This document shows, one piece after another, positions 11,252 through 62,771 of a stretch of DNA of 64,000 nucleotides. This DNA is from an uncultured Bdellovibrionales bacterium (lineage in GTDB: Bacteria > Bdellovibrionota > Bdellovibrionia > Bdellovibrionales > UBA1609): NCBI GenBank assembly GCA_903833275.1, contig CAILEP010000012.1, forward strand, positions 1-64,000. The letters run 5' to 3'. Each line of letters starts with the position of its first letter. Position 1 is the stretch's first letter. The position numbers and the translations under genes were made by a program. Under the pieces are notes generated by a model. That model was given only the letters and a program-made list of their open reading frames with translations. It did not search any database and was not told the origin of the DNA.

Positions 11252-12529
11252 ATGAAAAACCATCACGGTAAACCCACAAAAAATAGCGGTCTGAAGAGCG
11301 TAATGAGGGCGGTGGCCTCGATGGTCGTGGCGCTGGCAGCAGTGTCGTTAACCCATTGTGCCTCGCAATCGAAGTCAAGTGCGACTTCGGCCACTGATAA
11401 AGCTGAGAGTAAAACGTGGGCAAAGGGCATGCGCGGTATGGCTGAAAGTCTTCAGCGCCTGATGCCTTATGTTTTTAGTCGAGACGAATTCAATGACCCC
11501 AATAATCGTGCAGCGATCCATGACAGAATTGCCAACTTCGCCGCTGGAGTGGCCGAAGTGCCTAAACATGCTGGCGAAGCGATGCTCGGCAAAGACCCGC
11601 TGGTGCAGTTTTCGATTGCGCGTTTAACATCAAATGCGCATCACGCTCAGCAGGCCTTTGATGAGGGGCACCTCGAGTTTTCGCGCACCGTTTTGCGTGA
11701 AAGCATGGGTCTTTGTTTCAGCTGCCACTCTTCGCAACAGTTTGGCCCACAAGATAATTTTTCGACATCATCATTGAGCCCAAATTTTCGAATTTACCCA
11801 ACAGAGAGAGCTGACTATTACGTGGCCACTCGGCAATTTGATAAAGCTGTTGATCTGTTAGAAGGGGTTTTGAAGTCGCCAGCTCAGTTGCTCGACGACC
11901 CTCATGAACAAGTTGATTCGCTACGCAAATATTTGTCGCTCGAGGTTCGGGTGAAGAATGACCCCAATCGTGCGGCGGGTCTTCTTGAAAAATTTCTTTC
12001 ACAAAAAGATCTTCCTTATTTTATCGCGGCCGATGCTGAAGTTTGGTTAAAGAGCCTAAGAGATTGGCAGCGCGAAAAACCTTCGACGACATCAGCCTTG
12101 GTTCGGGCCCAAGCCTTAACCCGTAAGGCGCGAAATCTGCAAGCTACCGGTGGCTACCAGTCGGGGTATGTCGATTTCTTGCGTGTCACTTCAATATTGC
12201 ACGAGGGGTTGCGCTCAGCCGCAAGTCTAAAAGACAAATCTCATTATTATGAGATGCTGGGTCAGAGTTACGACACGCTTTCTGAAATGGGCACTTGGGA
12301 TTTGCCTGAGGTCTATTTCGAAGCCTGCATTCGCGCTTCGCCCAAGAGTGAAGAGTCGAAGCGTTGCTATCGCGAATTTGAGCGTGCCATTGTTCTCGGT
12401 TTTTCAGGTAGCGCTGGTGTCTTTATACCAAAAGAAGAGCGTGAGCGCATGAACGATCTCAAAGCCTTGGCCGGATTTTCGGTGTCGAATGATTTTGCGC
12501 CAGCAGAGAAATCGCCCGAGAAACATTGA
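11252..12529 (+). CDS. Monoheme c-type cytochrome lipoprotein with helical repeats
   Basis: 425 residues. The N terminus carries a lipoprotein signal ending at C36 (SLTHC), and a single covalent heme site C155-F-S-C158-H159 follows. After the heme site the sequence is helical and TPR-like (ADYYVATRQFDKAVDLLEGVL; KSHYYEMLGQSYDTLSEMG). It should be an outer-membrane-anchored periplasmic monoheme protein, possibly an electron carrier or a heme-binding scaffold, but no partner is adjacent. Its last 71 bases overlap the end of the convergent znuB-like gene on the other strand. Confidence 0.8.
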   Translation: MKNHHGKPTKNSGLKSVMRAVASMVVALAAVSLTHCASQSKSSATSATDKAESKTWAKGMRGMAESLQRLMPYVFSRDEFNDPNNRAAIHDRIANFAAGVAEVPKHAGEAMLGKDPLVQFSIARLTSNAHHAQQAFDEGHLEFSRTVLRESMGLCFSCHSSQQFGPQDNFSTSSLSPNFRIYPTERADYYVATRQFDKAVDLLEGVLKSPAQLLDDPHEQVDSLRKYLSLEVRVKNDPNRAAGLLEKFLSQKDLPYFIAADAEVWLKSLRDWQREKPSTTSALVRAQALTRKARNLQATGGYQSGYVDFLRVTSILHEGLRSAASLKDKSHYYEMLGQSYDTLSEMGTWDLPEVYFEACIRASPKSEESKRCYREFERAIVLGFSGSAGVFIPKEERERMNDLKALAGFSVSNDFAPAEKSPEKH

Positions 12530-55701: not shown

Positions 55702-56565
55702 TTGGTCAACATAAAAAAGATTCTGATTTTCGTGGTTTTAGTTTTCGGGCTGGTGCAGGCCGCTTTGGCCGAAAATCGCTATATCGTTGGTCGATCAACC
55801 TCCATTTATGAGGGGCCGAGCCGCGATTTTAAATCTGACCGGCACTACAATCGTGGGCAAACTGTTGATGTTGAAGAGAACTGCGAAGAGGGCTTTTGCC
55901 GAGTGAAGTTGGGTGCTGACATTGGCTACGTTCTGCGAAGTGCGCTTATTGACTGGCAGCTTGTCGGGCGGGTGGGTAGCACTGGTGAGGGTGTCTCCGC
56001 CGAAAAGCCCAAGCGATGGCAGTTTCGCTTTGAAATAATTGAATCCTACCTGCAAGAAGCCGCCCATGACATCCAAACGTCGCTAAATTCAACTTATAGT
56101 TTAAGTGCCTTCAAGGGGCTCAATACCAATTTCGCAATTGGCGTCGAGTATGCCAAAGATATTAATTGGAGTTGGCTCGCCGGGCTAATCTATCGTCGCG
56201 TCGACACCGAAGGCGATTCGGTTGAAACGGGCACAACGCTTACAAATCGTTTTCGCCTCGAGCAAACCTTTGTCGGTGGGACGGCGGGTGTGCGCTACTA
56301 TTTAAGTCATCACGAGCGCTGGAGTATGAGTGGTAACCTCGAGTATTCGAAAGGGCAGAGTATAAAGCTTGTTGTGCTTCAGGGGCCGGCAATTGATAGC
56401 TCTGGGTTGAAATTGCCGCTCTATGTAATTGCAACGGGTGGTTTGGGGTACACAATGCCACTGATGTCGCACTATTCTCTCGAGCTTGGCTTGCGTGCGG
56501 GTGCGGTTATGACGACGATCCCGGCGACAGTGGTCGCCGAAGGTTTGGTCGCTCTTCGGTTTTAA
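55702..56565 (+). CDS. Exported protein with SH3b domain and outer-membrane barrel
   Basis: 287 residues beginning at a TTG, which is the only start that gives a full signal peptide (KKILIFVVLVFGLVQAALA-EN). An SH3b-type domain follows (YIVGRSTSIYEGPSRDF, VDVEENCEEGFCRVKLG), then a C-terminal half of amphipathic beta strands (LNSTYSLSAFKGLNTNFAIG) ending EGLVALRF with a terminal Phe. The pairing of an SH3b module with a small barrel suggests an outer-membrane protein that binds peptidoglycan or protein. Its stop is at the edge of the palindrome at 56564. Confidence 0.75.
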   Translation: MVNIKKILIFVVLVFGLVQAALAENRYIVGRSTSIYEGPSRDFKSDRHYNRGQTVDVEENCEEGFCRVKLGADIGYVLRSALIDWQLVGRVGSTGEGVSAEKPKRWQFRFEIIESYLQEAAHDIQTSLNSTYSLSAFKGLNTNFAIGVEYAKDINWSWLAGLIYRRVDTEGDSVETGTTLTNRFRLEQTFVGGTAGVRYYLSHHERWSMSGNLEYSKGQSIKLVVLQGPAIDSSGLKLPLYVIATGGLGYTMPLMSHYSLELGLRAGAVMTTIPATVVAEGLVALRF

Positions 56566-56621
56566 GGTGCCAAGCACTTTTTGGTAGCGCACCTGCGCTA
56601 CCAAAAAGTGCTTGGCACCTT
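56564..56621. repeat. 58-base perfect palindrome between two converging genes
   Basis: 28-base arms (56564-56591 and 56594-56621) pair perfectly around a two-base loop. The element begins inside the TAA of the plus-strand gene and ends at the first base of the minus-strand gene's stop, so it fills the space exactly. It should stop transcription from both sides and is likely a mobile REP-type sequence. It does not match the palindromes at 405 or 47930. Confidence 0.8.
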
Positions 56622-58198
56622 CAGAAATACAGGTGCAGCTGTAGGAGAGCGAGGTCGGTTTTTGTGTCGAGATCGTTGATTGTGTCTTTGTCGTCACGGT
56701 TGATAATATCGAAATCAAGAGAGGTTCCGGAGATGAGGTAAGCTTTGGCGCCGACGCTAAGTTGGGTTGAGCTGCCTTGTTTTAAGTTGCGCGCCACATT
56801 CGAAGTCGCCCAATTTGCCTTGAGATAGGTTTCTCGCCAAATGCGGTATCTCGCATCGATCGTGCTCACCGTCCCGGCGTCAGCTTGCCCGGGCAGAAAT
56901 TCTCTTTTTACATTCGTGACATCAAAGTTAACGATAAAGTTTCGAAGCATAAAGCCGCCGCTCAGGCTGAGCATTTTGTTTTCAAGGTCAGGGTTTGCGG
57001 TAATGCTGCCGCGCGGGCCTTTGGTGTCCCAGTAAGACAGCATAAATGAAGCGCCATAAGATACAAAGCGGCCACCGAGGTTAAGCGCGTAGCCTGAATC
57101 GCGATAAAATTTCGCATTGTTTGTCGATTCTGTCGGCATAATGAGGTGCAAGTTTACGAATGGCACGTTTGGTGAGCCGCCAATGGTGACCGCTTTGTAT
57201 ACGGCTTCAGCCGACCGCGCATTGTTTTGGTAATAGGCATCGCCCGTGAGGGGAGTGTTGTCGGCGAATCGAATCTGATTGAGCAGGCTTGTGTGGTCAG
57301 GAGTTTCGAGCCCAAACATGGGTTTATAGAGGCCCGCCATCATATAGGTCGCATAGGGCAAATCATCGACCATTAAGTAGGCGGTGCGCATTTGGGTGCC
57401 GCCCTCAGCAATCCATTCAATGTCTTGAGTGCTGAGGCTTGGGATATTAAATGAGCGCGTTTCAAAAACAAATTGAACATGCTCTGGGATTGGTCGAACT
57501 CGAACCCCGAGATCAAGAGACATAGGTGAAAAATAGCGCCGAGTAAGGGTTTGGCCAGCGATCGGCTTTTGTGTTCCATTGAAATAGAAGAAGCGAAAAT
57601 CGCCTCCGGCGAAAACACTTTGGCGGCGCTCGACACGGTAAGGGTCGTCTTCGGTAAGGCGAGCTAAAAACTCAGCTCGGCTGGCAACGTCGATCTGCTC
57701 TTGGCGATCGGACTTATCGTATGATTTCGGGTCGTAGTCAGCGTCTGGCAAAACGACCAAGTTGGGGCCGTCTTTCGCCATATCTACAAATCTCTGCCCG
57801 TCGTGATTCTTTGAGCTAGAAGTCAGAGCGGTCGGCATGTCGCCGTATTTTTGATATCGCAGGGGGGCGGGTGTGCCTTTATTGTGAAGGGTTAGTGAGC
57901 GTGCTGATCGCAGCCAGCGCTGTTGGTTCCAGACGCCATATTCGCTGCGCAAACCTCCGCCATTTGGGTTTACGTGGCAGCCTTGGCAGGCGAGGGTGCA
58001 GCGTCTTTCTGAGGCCATGACATTTCTTCGCGAAGGGCTATGGCAGGCCGAGCAGTTTTGCGCAAATCGATTTGAAATCCATGGTTCGGCCTTAAGTTGG
58101 GGCGAATAAGAAAGGGCCGAAAGGCCTGAAATAACAGAGAAGATGCCAAACAAAAGTGAGCGGCGAAGGTTCGAACAACACAAGATAAGGCGAAGCAT
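56621..58198 (-). CDS. Fused diheme c-type cytochrome / outer-membrane porin
   Basis: 525 residues from the ATG at 58198 with TTGGGGT upstream (a GTG/TTG-type start at 58222 is less likely). A signal peptide ends at LKA-EP. Two heme sites follow close together: C49-S-A-C52-H53 and C71-Q-G-C74-H75, then NPNGGGLRSEYGVWN. The other ~400 residues are beta-barrel-like (YALNLGGRFVSYGASFMLSYW; NKMLSLSGGFMLRNFIVNFDV) and end in LQLHLYF with a terminal Phe. The layout is like that of Cyc2-type fused porin-cytochromes but with two hemes. It suggests electron transfer across the outer membrane. No cytochrome partner is adjacent. Confidence 0.75.
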   Translation of the reverse strand: MLRLILCCSNLRRSLLFGIFSVISGLSALSYSPQLKAEPWISNRFAQNCSACHSPSRRNVMASERRCTLACQGCHVNPNGGGLRSEYGVWNQQRWLRSARSLTLHNKGTPAPLRYQKYGDMPTALTSSSKNHDGQRFVDMAKDGPNLVVLPDADYDPKSYDKSDRQEQIDVASRAEFLARLTEDDPYRVERRQSVFAGGDFRFFYFNGTQKPIAGQTLTRRYFSPMSLDLGVRVRPIPEHVQFVFETRSFNIPSLSTQDIEWIAEGGTQMRTAYLMVDDLPYATYMMAGLYKPMFGLETPDHTSLLNQIRFADNTPLTGDAYYQNNARSAEAVYKAVTIGGSPNVPFVNLHLIMPTESTNNAKFYRDSGYALNLGGRFVSYGASFMLSYWDTKGPRGSITANPDLENKMLSLSGGFMLRNFIVNFDVTNVKREFLPGQADAGTVSTIDARYRIWRETYLKANWATSNVARNLKQGSSTQLSVGAKAYLISGTSLDFDIINRDDKDTINDLDTKTDLALLQLHLYF

Positions 58199-58356
58199 AT
58201 TACCCCAATAAAAGCGGACCAATTATTTTGAAGATCGTCGCGAACCTAGACAAAGGTGTCAATAAAATCTAGGTGTTGTGAAACACAACTAGCAAAAAGC
58301 CGTAATGCGCAATAAGCGATTGCAAAACGCAACAGCATGACGGCTTAATATTAGTG

Positions 58357-58953
58357 ATGGAACACGAAGTTGAATTATTGGTCGATCGAGCGCCACCTAA
58401 ATCTTCTCAAAAGATGCGTTACGATGCTGAGATTGAGGTGATTCGAAAGACTCATGGCACACTTGAAGAAATGCGCCTTAAGCTCGGTCTATCGCGCCGT
58501 CGACTCTGTCGAGTTTTGATGGTCGACCCTTCGGCATGGACCCGCTGGACGCAACAGACCCGCTGGACGCAACAGACCCGCTGGACGCAACAGAGCCATC
58601 TGCCGGGTCGACCCGGAAGTCAACCCGATCGCGCGCCGGCCCACGTTTACAAGATGCTCGCGATGATTCTCGAACAAAACGGGGGTTTTGGGCCTGATAA
58701 TATCGATCAGCATATTATTGAAGCAAAAATCAGGGTGCAAGAGAGCGAAGCGAACTTGAAGAAAACCCGTGAGCAGATTCGATACGAACTTGACGAGCAG
58801 GGTCAAGAATTGCGTCAACAAATGAGAGCCGAGATTCAATCTCAAATTGAATCTATGCGCCAATCTCAGCAGAGGGGCTCTGAGCTCGCTTTTGGTTACA
58901 AGCTCATTTTGATTCTTAATATTGTCTTAGTTCTATACGCGCTTTTTCGCTAA
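58357..58953 (+). CDS. Tail-anchored protein with DNA-binding-like N terminus
   Basis: 198 residues (ATG 58357; the GTG at 58354 is possible). A helix-turn-helix-like stretch (TLEEMRLKLGLSRRRLCRVLM) leads to DPSAWTRWTQQ, in which TRWTQQ occurs three times in tandem. APAHVYKMLAMIL follows, then a coiled coil (RVQESEANLKKTREQIRYEL) and a C-terminal membrane segment (YKLILILNIVLVLYALF). I recall similar WTRW-x-APPHVY proteins in Bdellovibrio relatives, with only one copy of the motif. It may link DNA or RNA to the membrane, but no function is known. Confidence 0.75.
   Translation: MEHEVELLVDRAPPKSSQKMRYDAEIEVIRKTHGTLEEMRLKLGLSRRRLCRVLMVDPSAWTRWTQQTRWTQQTRWTQQSHLPGRPGSQPDRAPAHVYKMLAMILEQNGGFGPDNIDQHIIEAKIRVQESEANLKKTREQIRYELDEQGQELRQQMRAEIQSQIESMRQSQQRGSELAFGYKLILILNIVLVLYALFR
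58540..58593 (+). repeat. Three exact 18-base tandem repeats inside a coding region
   Basis: ACCCGCTGGACGCAACAG occurs three times without a change, adding TRWTQQ three times to the protein without shifting frame. Exact identity suggests recent slippage, and copy number may vary between strains. Confidence 0.9.
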
Positions 58954-59042: not shown

Positions 59043-62000
59043 ATGGTGTTCAAGCACTTTTCTCAAGTGTGTCGGGTGTCTCTGAAGTCTGTTGGCTATA
59101 CGATTGGTTTGCTCTCGTGTGCGCTCTCGATTTCTTGCACTCGGACGGTAAATCAAACGGCCCATATTACACTTTCATTGCCGCAAGAGAAAGTCGGTGG
59201 GCAGTCGGTTGGGCGCGGGGCCTCATCGACCATGGCTTTGGCCCATGTCATAATTAACGTAACTGGTCCTGGTATTTCAAGCCCTGCGTTTCTCGCTTGG
59301 GATTGGAACAACGGCAAAAACGTAAACCCAGTTACATTTAGCCTCACAGTGCCAGGTGGTTCGGGCCGCCTTGTGCAGGTTCTTGCTGTCTATAGCAATG
59401 GGATTGATTCATTTTACTATGGCGATGTGACCTCTGACATTAATGCTGACACAGTTTTGCCGGTGACAATTGCGCCTTTGGGCAATGCCGCTGTTGGCGA
59501 AGGCAGCGTAGCTGGTCGGTATTTAACCGCCACAGGTACAGGCCCCACTGGCAATTTGCGCATTATGTACACCCCGACTGGCAAACCGGCCATGTTGATC
59601 GGGACGGACTCTATAGTTGGTGGTTTTTTCGGCTCGTTTGCTCTTTCGGGCATCGGATTTAATTATTTGCTTGATGATGGTACGGATATTTTTGCCGGCC
59701 CTCTCGATCTGGCCACCTATGCCCCGGCCGGCGCTCAAGTTTCTTTTTATTTACCACAAATGTATAGTCAGCACGGCTCGGGTTCGACCCCGTCTTATCA
59801 ATTGAAGATGACGAGCAGTGCATTGTTTGGGTATTTCGGCCCAGGTGCTGCGACCAATACGGCGTTAAAGATTTGTTATCCAAGTGCAAATGGCTCGCTC
59901 AATGGGGCTTACTCGGATGCGGGCATTACACCGATCACCTACAAACCTTCAGGCACGGCGGGCAATGCGCATGTATTGAGCGCAGGCTCAAGGGCGATGT
60001 CGTCAGCGATACTCGATTCGCAGGGTCTCTGCACTGACACCATCACTGGTGATCTTATTTATACGAATTATTTGGCAGTCGATGCGAAGCAGATTGCCAA
60101 TCAAGATCAGTCACTCGCTTTTCGCGGGCCCTATCAGTCGATTATGCAGACCGGTTCAAATTGGCGAAATGCGTTTAACGTTGTTTACAGCGTTGACGGT
60201 ATCACGCCGTCTTTCACATATTTGCCTGGCGTCGTGACCTCCGGCACAAGTCGAACCGCAGCTGGTTTTGTTCAAGGTGTGGATGGTACGGATATATTCT
60301 ATCGAGCTATATCTTCTACTTATACAAACTCCCGCGATTTCGAAGGTCAAAATGGCAACGCAGATTGCTCGACGCTCGGCTCTTTGTCGACGCCCTTTGT
60401 GTTTGCACAATCGGTCGTTGTTCCGAACACACCGACGCTGATCACTGTGTCATCGGCTGACGTAGCCACGATGACGGGCGGAGGCACGCTTCAAGCGATC
60501 GCTTGCCCATACGAACTTTTAGCTTCAGGCAAAGTGTATTTACCTGCGTCAGTTGAGGCTGAGGCCGGTGGATCGATGAGTGGCCCCGGCGGGCCTGCCC
60601 AGGCGAATGCATTTTTGTTGAGCGATACGCTTGGGCAAGCCATCACTTCAGGCGCACCAACGTTTGAACTGACCGGAGCCTGTATACCGTTGGTGATTGC
60701 GGGCGCAAATGGTGCAACACCCGCTTCTTTGGGTATGGTAAACCCGGCCAACATCACTGTCACCCCAACCGCTTTTGGTGGTTCGGTTACTTACTATGGC
60801 GGCGATCCGTCTTGCGTTACGCCCTCATTGCCGAGCCCATTTGTTTCTGGTGGCACGAATGCCTTTTTGATTTTCGTAAAGGGCACGCTCGGTGTTCATG
60901 CATCAGGGTCTTTAGTGATTGCAGATACGGCTGACGGCTTAACACCGCTCACGGCCAATATTCAATTTCATGATCCAGCAGCAACCCCCGCATACTTGAT
61001 GAGTTTGGGAGTGCCTTCGGTGATCAATCAATATGGTTGCTATCCATTGCACATCACCGAATTGGTGGATGGGAGCAGCATTGGTTTGCCAATGTTGGTG
61101 GGCCCAAACCCCTCAGCGACAAGTGCGTCGGTGACCTATGCCGCAGCAGCTGGAGTTGTGTATTACACCGACCCCGCCTGTATGACAGTGGCGTCGGCGA
61201 GCCCCTATGTAAATCTTTACGGAGCGCAATTGTATTCGGGCGGCAATGGCTCAAGCCCGCTTTACTTTAGTTATACAGGTGCGCCAATCGCCTCAACCAA
61301 TATTAGTTTGGCGTCGTCGGTCACGCCCTATGCATCGTTTTCTAACAGCAATATTCTGACGGTGAACCCGGCGAATGCTCCGACAAGAATTAATGTCGGC
61401 GTTAACAATTTGGTTACCCAAAACCTTTGCACAGCGATTAATATTCAGCTTCAAGATTCTTCGGGTAACCCTGTGCCTGCGCCGACAGCGAGCGTAAATG
61501 CGACGTTGACGCTCGCGGCTGGTTCTGTTGGGCAATTCTTTCTGTCGCCCAGTTGTTCTGCTGGTGGTGCCACGTCTGCGAATGTCAATATTGGAACTGG
61601 GCAGACTTTTGCCACGGCCTATTATTTATCGTCGACTTTTGGTAATGCAAGCATGACAGCGGCGGTTTCGTCACCCTTTGTTTACTCGACAAGCCCGACG
61701 ATTACGGTCGCACCACCGCCGCCCACGGTAGCATTTTTTGCGTTACAGGCTGACAGTGCGGCTGGTGGATTGAGTTCGGCTCCGCAAACGTTTACCTCGG
61801 GTACAAACGGAGTCATTCCGTCGACCGCTCCAAATATTATGATTAATTCGACGGCAACGGTGACGGTCTATGCCGCCAATTACACAGGTGCGGCCTATAA
61901 TATCGCCACCGGTTTTAATGGTGCAGGCTATAGCGTCACGATCTCGGGCACTGGGGTGAATGGCACTTCAGTGACCATTCCGTTTAACTTCGTGAACGGC

Positions 62001-62771
62001 GCGTTTACGTTTTCGATCAATACCGCCGCGAGCCCGGGTATGTCGATTGCGGTCAATTTGACTTCACCCGCCAATACGCCGTACTTGTCTGGTTATGCGA
62101 GTTACACGACGTTTGGGCCGACGGCACCGACTTTGAATATGGTCAGCCCGGTGATAACTACGGCTGGCGCACCAGCGCATTTCATCGCGAACCTTTCGGC
62201 GCCTGCAGCTGGCCCGGTCAGTTTCTTTTATACAACGACAGATGGGACCGCGGCTTCACCGAGCAGTTATACTGCCAGATCAGGCACCATGACGATAATG
62301 GCTGGAGCGACTTCGGTCACTTTGCCGCCCGTAACGACTCTTGCAAACGGGTTGGGTTGGAACTTTACCATGAACATAAGTGCGATTTCGGGCGCCACGC
62401 CTGGCGTTGTGTCGGCGCTGACTACGCTGGGTAAGCCGACGGTCATGGTTTCGAGCCCTTCAACCACCGCGGGGGGGACATTGTTCTTCGTGGTCTCTCT
62501 AATTGCGCCTGAAAATGCGAATATGCTGGTGACACCTTTAAGTATGGTGCTTTTTAATTACGCGACTGCAAGTGGCGCCGCCACGACGGTGGGTACGGAT
62601 TACACGGCGGCCTCTGGCAGCGTAACGATTAATGCTGGCAGCTCTACGTCGACGATAATGGTAAATACGGCATCCCCAGCTGGTACTGGCAAAACGGTAC
62701 AGCTCAATGTCACCGGGATTGTAAATGCGGCGCCTGCGGGCGGCACGGTGACGGGCATCGGCAGTTTCTAA
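59043..62771 (+). CDS. Large surface lipoprotein with Calx-beta-like C terminus
   Basis: 1242 residues. A lipoprotein signal (GLLSCALSISCTRT, cysteine in LSISC) is followed by about 1000 residues of Ser/Thr/Gly/Ala-rich beta sequence with repeated patterns such as TGACIPLVIAGANG and QYGCYPLHITELVDG, each with one cysteine per module. Near the C terminus are two Calx-beta-like units (TTDGTAASPSSYTARSGTMTI; GTDYTAASGSVTINAGSST). It should be exposed on the outer membrane and could act as an adhesin. No export-partner gene is adjacent. The start has GGCGGAG upstream. Confidence 0.75.
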   Translation: MVFKHFSQVCRVSLKSVGYTIGLLSCALSISCTRTVNQTAHITLSLPQEKVGGQSVGRGASSTMALAHVIINVTGPGISSPAFLAWDWNNGKNVNPVTFSLTVPGGSGRLVQVLAVYSNGIDSFYYGDVTSDINADTVLPVTIAPLGNAAVGEGSVAGRYLTATGTGPTGNLRIMYTPTGKPAMLIGTDSIVGGFFGSFALSGIGFNYLLDDGTDIFAGPLDLATYAPAGAQVSFYLPQMYSQHGSGSTPSYQLKMTSSALFGYFGPGAATNTALKICYPSANGSLNGAYSDAGITPITYKPSGTAGNAHVLSAGSRAMSSAILDSQGLCTDTITGDLIYTNYLAVDAKQIANQDQSLAFRGPYQSIMQTGSNWRNAFNVVYSVDGITPSFTYLPGVVTSGTSRTAAGFVQGVDGTDIFYRAISSTYTNSRDFEGQNGNADCSTLGSLSTPFVFAQSVVVPNTPTLITVSSADVATMTGGGTLQAIACPYELLASGKVYLPASVEAEAGGSMSGPGGPAQANAFLLSDTLGQAITSGAPTFELTGACIPLVIAGANGATPASLGMVNPANITVTPTAFGGSVTYYGGDPSCVTPSLPSPFVSGGTNAFLIFVKGTLGVHASGSLVIADTADGLTPLTANIQFHDPAATPAYLMSLGVPSVINQYGCYPLHITELVDGSSIGLPMLVGPNPSATSASVTYAAAAGVVYYTDPACMTVASASPYVNLYGAQLYSGGNGSSPLYFSYTGAPIASTNISLASSVTPYASFSNSNILTVNPANAPTRINVGVNNLVTQNLCTAINIQLQDSSGNPVPAPTASVNATLTLAAGSVGQFFLSPSCSAGGATSANVNIGTGQTFATAYYLSSTFGNASMTAAVSSPFVYSTSPTITVAPPPPTVAFFALQADSAAGGLSSAPQTFTSGTNGVIPSTAPNIMINSTATVTVYAANYTGAAYNIATGFNGAGYSVTISGTGVNGTSVTIPFNFVNGAFTFSINTAASPGMSIAVNLTSPANTPYLSGYASYTTFGPTAPTLNMVSPVITTAGAPAHFIANLSAPAAGPVSFFYTTTDGTAASPSSYTARSGTMTIMAGATSVTLPPVTTLANGLGWNFTMNISAISGATPGVVSALTTLGKPTVMVSSPSTTAGGTLFFVVSLIAPENANMLVTPLSMVLFNYATASGAATTVGTDYTAASGSVTINAGSSTSTIMVNTASPAGTGKTVQLNVTGIVNAAPAGGTVTGIGSF

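Follow-up and report, generated by a model that had tools for sequence, protein, structure and literature searches.

A two-heme cytochrome-porin of the Bdellovibrionota, a candidate one-piece outer-membrane electron conduit

Introduction

Can a single polypeptide provide both the barrel that crosses the outer membrane and two c-type hemes to carry electrons through it? Most of what is known about outer-membrane electron transfer concerns large conduits built of several proteins, together with the one-heme protein Cyc2. The question is raised by a gene in a 64,000-nucleotide stretch of DNA (the window) from an uncultured Bdellovibrionales bacterium, for which a sequence-only reading had proposed a two-heme domain fused to an outer-membrane barrel. 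In the open-licence literature, whose silence is weak evidence of absence, we found neither a two-heme fused cytochrome-porin nor the diheme family itself described, and that literature yielded no account of extracellular electron exchange in Bdellovibrionota.

The gene and its surroundings

The diheme cytochrome-porin gene (56621..58198, stop codon included) encodes 525 amino acids on the minus strand, a strand that the sequence-only reading had left out, with its ATG at 58198 and its stop at 56621. The ORF is real rather than a product of chance, because homologues are present in 26 of 60 relatives and on over 40 GTDB contigs, two sets that overlap. There is an in-frame TTG 24 nt upstream of the ATG; the ATG was kept as the start because a GGGG stretch lies a few nt 5' of it. 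The gene is present as a single copy in the host genome.

On one side the diheme gene meets a convergent neighbour (55702-56565, plus strand). The two are separated by an inverted repeat whose 27-bp arms pair perfectly around a loop of 4 bases (56564..56621; z -11.8). It is probably a strong bidirectional terminator, and its arm has no other occurrence in the window. On the other side is a divergent gene (58354-58953, plus strand) whose start resembles a helix-turn-helix and which contains TRWTQQ as a short tandem repeat in frame; this gene may be a linked regulator. Thus, flanked by a convergent gene and hairpin on one side and by a divergent gene on the other, the diheme gene is apparently transcribed alone. 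A gene resembling 58354-58953 is likewise divergent to the diheme homologue at another locus, L062 (9434-9829). The window also encodes a large lipoprotein-like secreted protein of 1242 aa (59043-62771, plus strand), and L062 has a 907-aa lipoprotein in the same relative position.

No cytochrome gene is adjacent to the diheme gene in the window, and no multiheme cytochrome gene of the kind that accompanies MtrB/PioB porins flanks it there. Elsewhere in the window, a lipoprotein-like protein (11252-12529, plus strand) carries CxxCH once, as CFSCH, and matches no Pfam family significantly. The host genome encodes two cytochrome c assembly proteins and two heme-copper oxidases; therefore, the host is probably able both to make the diheme protein and to use its electrons.

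The diheme head

The protein begins with a predicted signal peptide (residues 1-37; 58088..58198, minus strand), recognized from the sequence and modelled as a helix at residues 10-27. It is probably cut after LKA, so that the mature protein would start at EPW. The head that follows (residues 37-98; 57905..58090, minus strand) is the best conserved stretch in an alignment of 40 full-length diheme proteins, with the near-invariant sequence AEPWxSNRFAQNCxxCHxPxRxNxxxxxRRCTLxCQGCHVNPNGGGxRxxYGxW. The first heme motif, C49-S-A-C-H53 (58040..58054, minus strand), and the second, C71-Q-G-C-H75 (57974..57988, minus strand), which is followed by VNPNGGG, are each invariant in 40/40 homologues, so the two-heme proposal stands where unconserved motifs would have refuted it. 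The two motifs behind the signal peptide, the extra cysteine C67 between them and the terminal Phe are all where the sequence-only reading had placed them.

C67 (57998..58000, minus strand) is also invariant (40/40), and the spacing C-x3-CxxCH is found in 0/24 one-heme relatives. In the 40 aligned proteins the only invariant cysteines are C49, C52, C67, C71 and C74, and the only invariant histidines are H53, H75, H302 and H522. C67, being confined to the diheme proteins, may be an axial ligand of one heme, and would have arrived with the second heme. The AlphaFold2 model, from which hemes are absent, is of lower confidence in the head region (pLDDT <50 at residues 68-72).

The predicted barrel and its histidines

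The C-terminal part of the protein is predicted to form a 16-stranded beta-barrel (residues 195-525; 56624..57616, minus strand). AlphaFold2, run on the 40-sequence alignment, gave a model with mean pLDDT 82.7, pTM 0.82 and 16 strands over residues 195-524. VIA matched this model to Omp32 (1e54) over residues 193-525 (Z 22.0, rmsd 3.0 A, 287 residues) and also to OprO/OprP (Z 21); by sequence, the window protein had no match in the PDB. Agreement between the 16-strand prediction and solved 16-stranded porins makes a closed barrel, the absence of which would have told against the original proposal, well supported at the level of a model. The barrel that had been judged by eye to span about 400 residues therefore stands as a predicted barrel of shorter length, about 330 residues, because a linker of about 95 residues separates it from the head.

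In classical porins the long loop after strand 5 folds into the lumen. The corresponding loop 3 of the model (residues 292-333; 57200..57325, minus strand), delimited by DSSP and the alignment, contains the motif PMFGLETPDHTSL and the candidate heme or metal ligand H302 (57293..57295, minus strand), which is mostly preceded by Asp. The other invariant barrel histidine, H522 (56633..56635, minus strand), is the fourth residue from the C-terminal end, within the last strand, and by strand alternation probably faces the lumen near the periplasm. Both are invariant not just in 40/40 diheme proteins but in 24/24 one-heme relatives as well, so the idea that H302 and H522 are distal ligands of one heme each is weakened. 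M226, another invariant residue considered as a heme ligand, is thought unlikely, since strand alternation would place it on the lipid side.

Distribution

Within the phylum the diheme family is patchy (37 of 369 genomes). A scan of 84,980 species found 48 loci, nearly all labelled Bdellovibrionales, Oligoflexales or related groups, together with one from Eisenbacteria and two from Ignavibacteria. The nearest named homologues of the window protein are in Bdellovibrionales MAGs, and no match to it was found in plasmids, which also lacked a match to a monoheme relative, or in viral contigs. Thus, by sequence comparison, the protein is a member of an unnamed family that is confined almost wholly to Bdellovibrionota, and its patchy occurrence places it outside core respiration. 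Two homologues come from MAGs labelled "Streptomyces griseus" (L054) and "Zetaproteobacteria" (L060); they group with Bdellovibrionota, and the MAGs are probably mislabelled.

Monoheme relatives

The proteins encoded at the two Ignavibacteria loci are 360 residues long and have a single heme motif (ALPRF...CQNCHIDPNGGGMRNYYG), together with a loop-3 motif (TPAYGTRIDDHT) and a C-terminal His as in the diheme proteins. Searches of the phylum of the Ignavibacteria and of Eisenbacteria then yielded many more one-heme members, and CxxCH is invariant once in 24/24 of these relatives. An hhalign comparison of the diheme and monoheme profiles spans the full length of both (probability 99.8, E 4e-28) and opens a gap of 22 residues within the heme motif. 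On this alignment, the two-heme head is a one-heme head with an insertion of about 22 residues that carries C67 and the second CxxCH. A monoheme model likewise has a 16-strand barrel, with OprO/OprP as the best matches (Z 25).

These proteins make up the "NPxGGG" diheme/monoheme cytochrome-porin superfamily, defined in the present analysis by a CxxCHxNPxGGG head, loop-3 PxFG...H, C-terminal HxxF/Y and a 16-strand barrel, and the window protein has all of these features, the last as a prediction. In the tree the diheme proteins of Bdellovibrionota form one clade (99/99) and the monoheme proteins another (96/91), and the diheme protein from Eisenbacteria, which has a long branch, is placed next to the monoheme clade, a position compatible with a second heme that was gained once, gained twice or lost. 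As far as homology can tell, the window protein is the two-heme branch of a widespread unnamed superfamily with one-heme members and not an isolated oddity.

Cytochrome genes near the loci

At many monoheme loci the neighbouring gene encodes either a c-type cytochrome of small size or a small protein with CxxCHxNPxGGG. At L086, L089, L090, L091, L093, L096 and L105, a recurrent small cytochrome (FxxDVxPIxxxxCLPCH...WIxQGAKNN) is encoded immediately beside the monoheme cytochrome-porin and is likely to be its electron-transfer partner. Proteins of 227-250 aa with C(A/S)NCHxxPxGGG heads are encoded just upstream of monoheme cytochrome-porins at L100 (613-1341), L101 (2615-3364), L102 (2705-3385) and L104 (2697-3380); these may be partners of the downstream proteins. 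Of 45 diheme loci, 15 encode a CxxCH protein no more than two genes away (odds ratio 2.6, p 0.014); the excess is weak, and no conserved operon partner emerged from these loci. A partner-like lipoprotein of L035 has nothing better than weak matches in the window's own genome.

Possible functions

What might such a protein do? We lean towards a compact one-piece outer-membrane electron conduit, or a small-donor oxidase, that feeds periplasmic cytochromes. The signal peptide would send the protein to the periplasm, where two c-type hemes would be attached to the head; the C-terminal 16-stranded barrel would insert in the outer membrane so that its two ends face the periplasm, and the head would sit at, or plug, its periplasmic mouth. 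A soluble small redox partner, perhaps Fe2+, another metal or a small reductant, would enter the barrel from outside, and the two hemes would pass electrons between this partner and periplasmic c-type cytochromes, which would in turn feed the respiratory chain. Ligands for heme or substrate inside the barrel could come from loop 3 (H302) and the last strand (H522). This reading draws on the invariant heme motifs (40/40), the 16-strand porin fold and the invariance of H302 and H522 in both branches; on full-length homology to monoheme cytochrome-porins and profile-level similarity of the head to Cyc2-type proteins; on CxxCH genes near many monoheme, Cyc2-type and 15 of 45 diheme loci; and on the cytochrome c assembly proteins and two heme-copper oxidases of the host. 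Against it stand the lack of a cytochrome gene adjacent to the window gene, the patchy distribution and the sharing of the barrel histidines with one-heme relatives.

A bolder form of the conduit reading is tentative and, on present evidence, rather doubtful: through the 22-residue insertion a Cyc2-like head would acquire another heme, with C67 as a possible Cys ligand, the loop-3 and last-strand histidines would ligate hemes or substrate in the lumen, and one polypeptide of about 55 kDa would be a complete conduit of new architecture. If this is true, it would follow that extracellular electron exchange takes place in the Bdellovibrio phylum.

A family that joins two hemes in one chain, and whose candidate ligands are fully invariant, would offer a conduit of very small size for study and engineering, and its presence would mark Bdellovibrionota that may exchange electrons extracellularly.

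The same architecture could instead belong to a redox-coupled uptake porin, in which the barrel admits, for example, a ferric complex that the heme head reduces at the periplasmic mouth, for import and not for respiration. The barrel does resemble general and substrate-selective porins (Omp32, OprO/OprP), and loop 3 has its invariant His, mostly with Asp before it; however, many monoheme relatives adjoin c-type cytochromes and no linked transporter is seen next to the window gene, and we consider this function unlikely. A role in defence or sensing, in which hemes at the cell surface quench or detect reactive oxygen, NO or metals and no energy is gained, would suit an accessory distribution within one phylum and a possible open or Cys-ligated heme site (C67). 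Since the fold is that of a porin and not of a receptor, and no obvious signalling partner lies beside the gene save the divergent helix-turn-helix-like gene, such a role seems quite improbable. It is hardly credible that the protein is an ordinary porin, with CxxCH pairs that play a structural part or hold some other metal instead of c-type heme, given that CxxCH is invariant twice in 40/40 diheme proteins and once in 24/24 monoheme relatives, that the head weakly matches c-type cytochrome models only and that it resembles the Cyc2 head at profile level.

Comparison with known systems

Like MtrAB, PioAB and MtoAB, the diheme protein would move electrons across the outer membrane through a barrel; unlike these systems, which consist of two separate proteins with a decaheme wire and a 26-strand barrel, it is one chain. 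The window protein had no significant match to the MtrB/PioB models or to any other Pfam/NCBIfam family; at E<=1, weak, sub-threshold matches of CxxCH/c-type cytochrome models to the head were all that appeared.

In the iron oxidase Cyc2, a single heme is combined with a 16-strand barrel, the model of which resembles OprO/OprP, and with AXPXFAR[Q/K][T/Y] and PXL motifs (PMC8406198). Six Cyc2-type references were taken from plasmid records by a query with a consensus head peptide, and only the retrieved database proteins were used. (Scanning Bacteroidota genomes, viral contigs and three plasmids for the Cyc2 motif as a DNA pattern gave nothing useful; the spacing of the first pattern was probably wrong.) The references contain the strict upstream motif in 3/6, its relaxed form in 6/6 and PXL in 6/6, and a c-type cytochrome gene adjoins 5/6 of their genes. 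The Cyc2-type head aligns with the diheme head (E 1e-5, probability 82) over only about 43 head columns, and with monoheme heads at E 1e-8. As a control, a CxxCH family unrelated to these gave E 4e-3 to 2e-2 against the heads. The likeness to Cyc2 is thus limited to the head, at profile level: the barrels do not align, and the upstream motif and PXL after CXXCH are each found in 0/40 diheme proteins. The families may still be cousins, because C-terminal regions are reported to be without significant homology even among accepted Cyc2-like proteins (PMC5566968).

Close counterparts are the monoheme "ALPRFAxR..CxxCHxNPxGGG" cytochrome-porins of Ignavibacteria/Bacteroidota and Eisenbacteria, which share full-length homology, the predicted 16-strand barrel, loop-3 PxFG...DHT and the C-terminal His, and differ in having one heme and no insertion with C67 and the second CxxCH. 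Through them, fused cytochrome-porins reach beyond the Cyc2 motif currently used to find such proteins. With Cyc2 the diheme protein has in common a single chain, an N-terminal c-heme head after a signal peptide, a predicted 16-stranded OprO/OprP-type barrel, a head that is similar at profile level and a small cytochrome gene that is often adjacent in the group. It departs from Cyc2 in its two CXXCH motifs (40/40) instead of one, as the sequence-only reading had emphasized, in the extra invariant C67, and in the loop-3 and C-terminal His motifs, which are absent from 6/6 references. Because the Cyc2 motifs and single heme are lacking and its His motifs are absent from the references, the window protein is not filed as Cyc2; it probably works like Cyc2 without being Cyc2.
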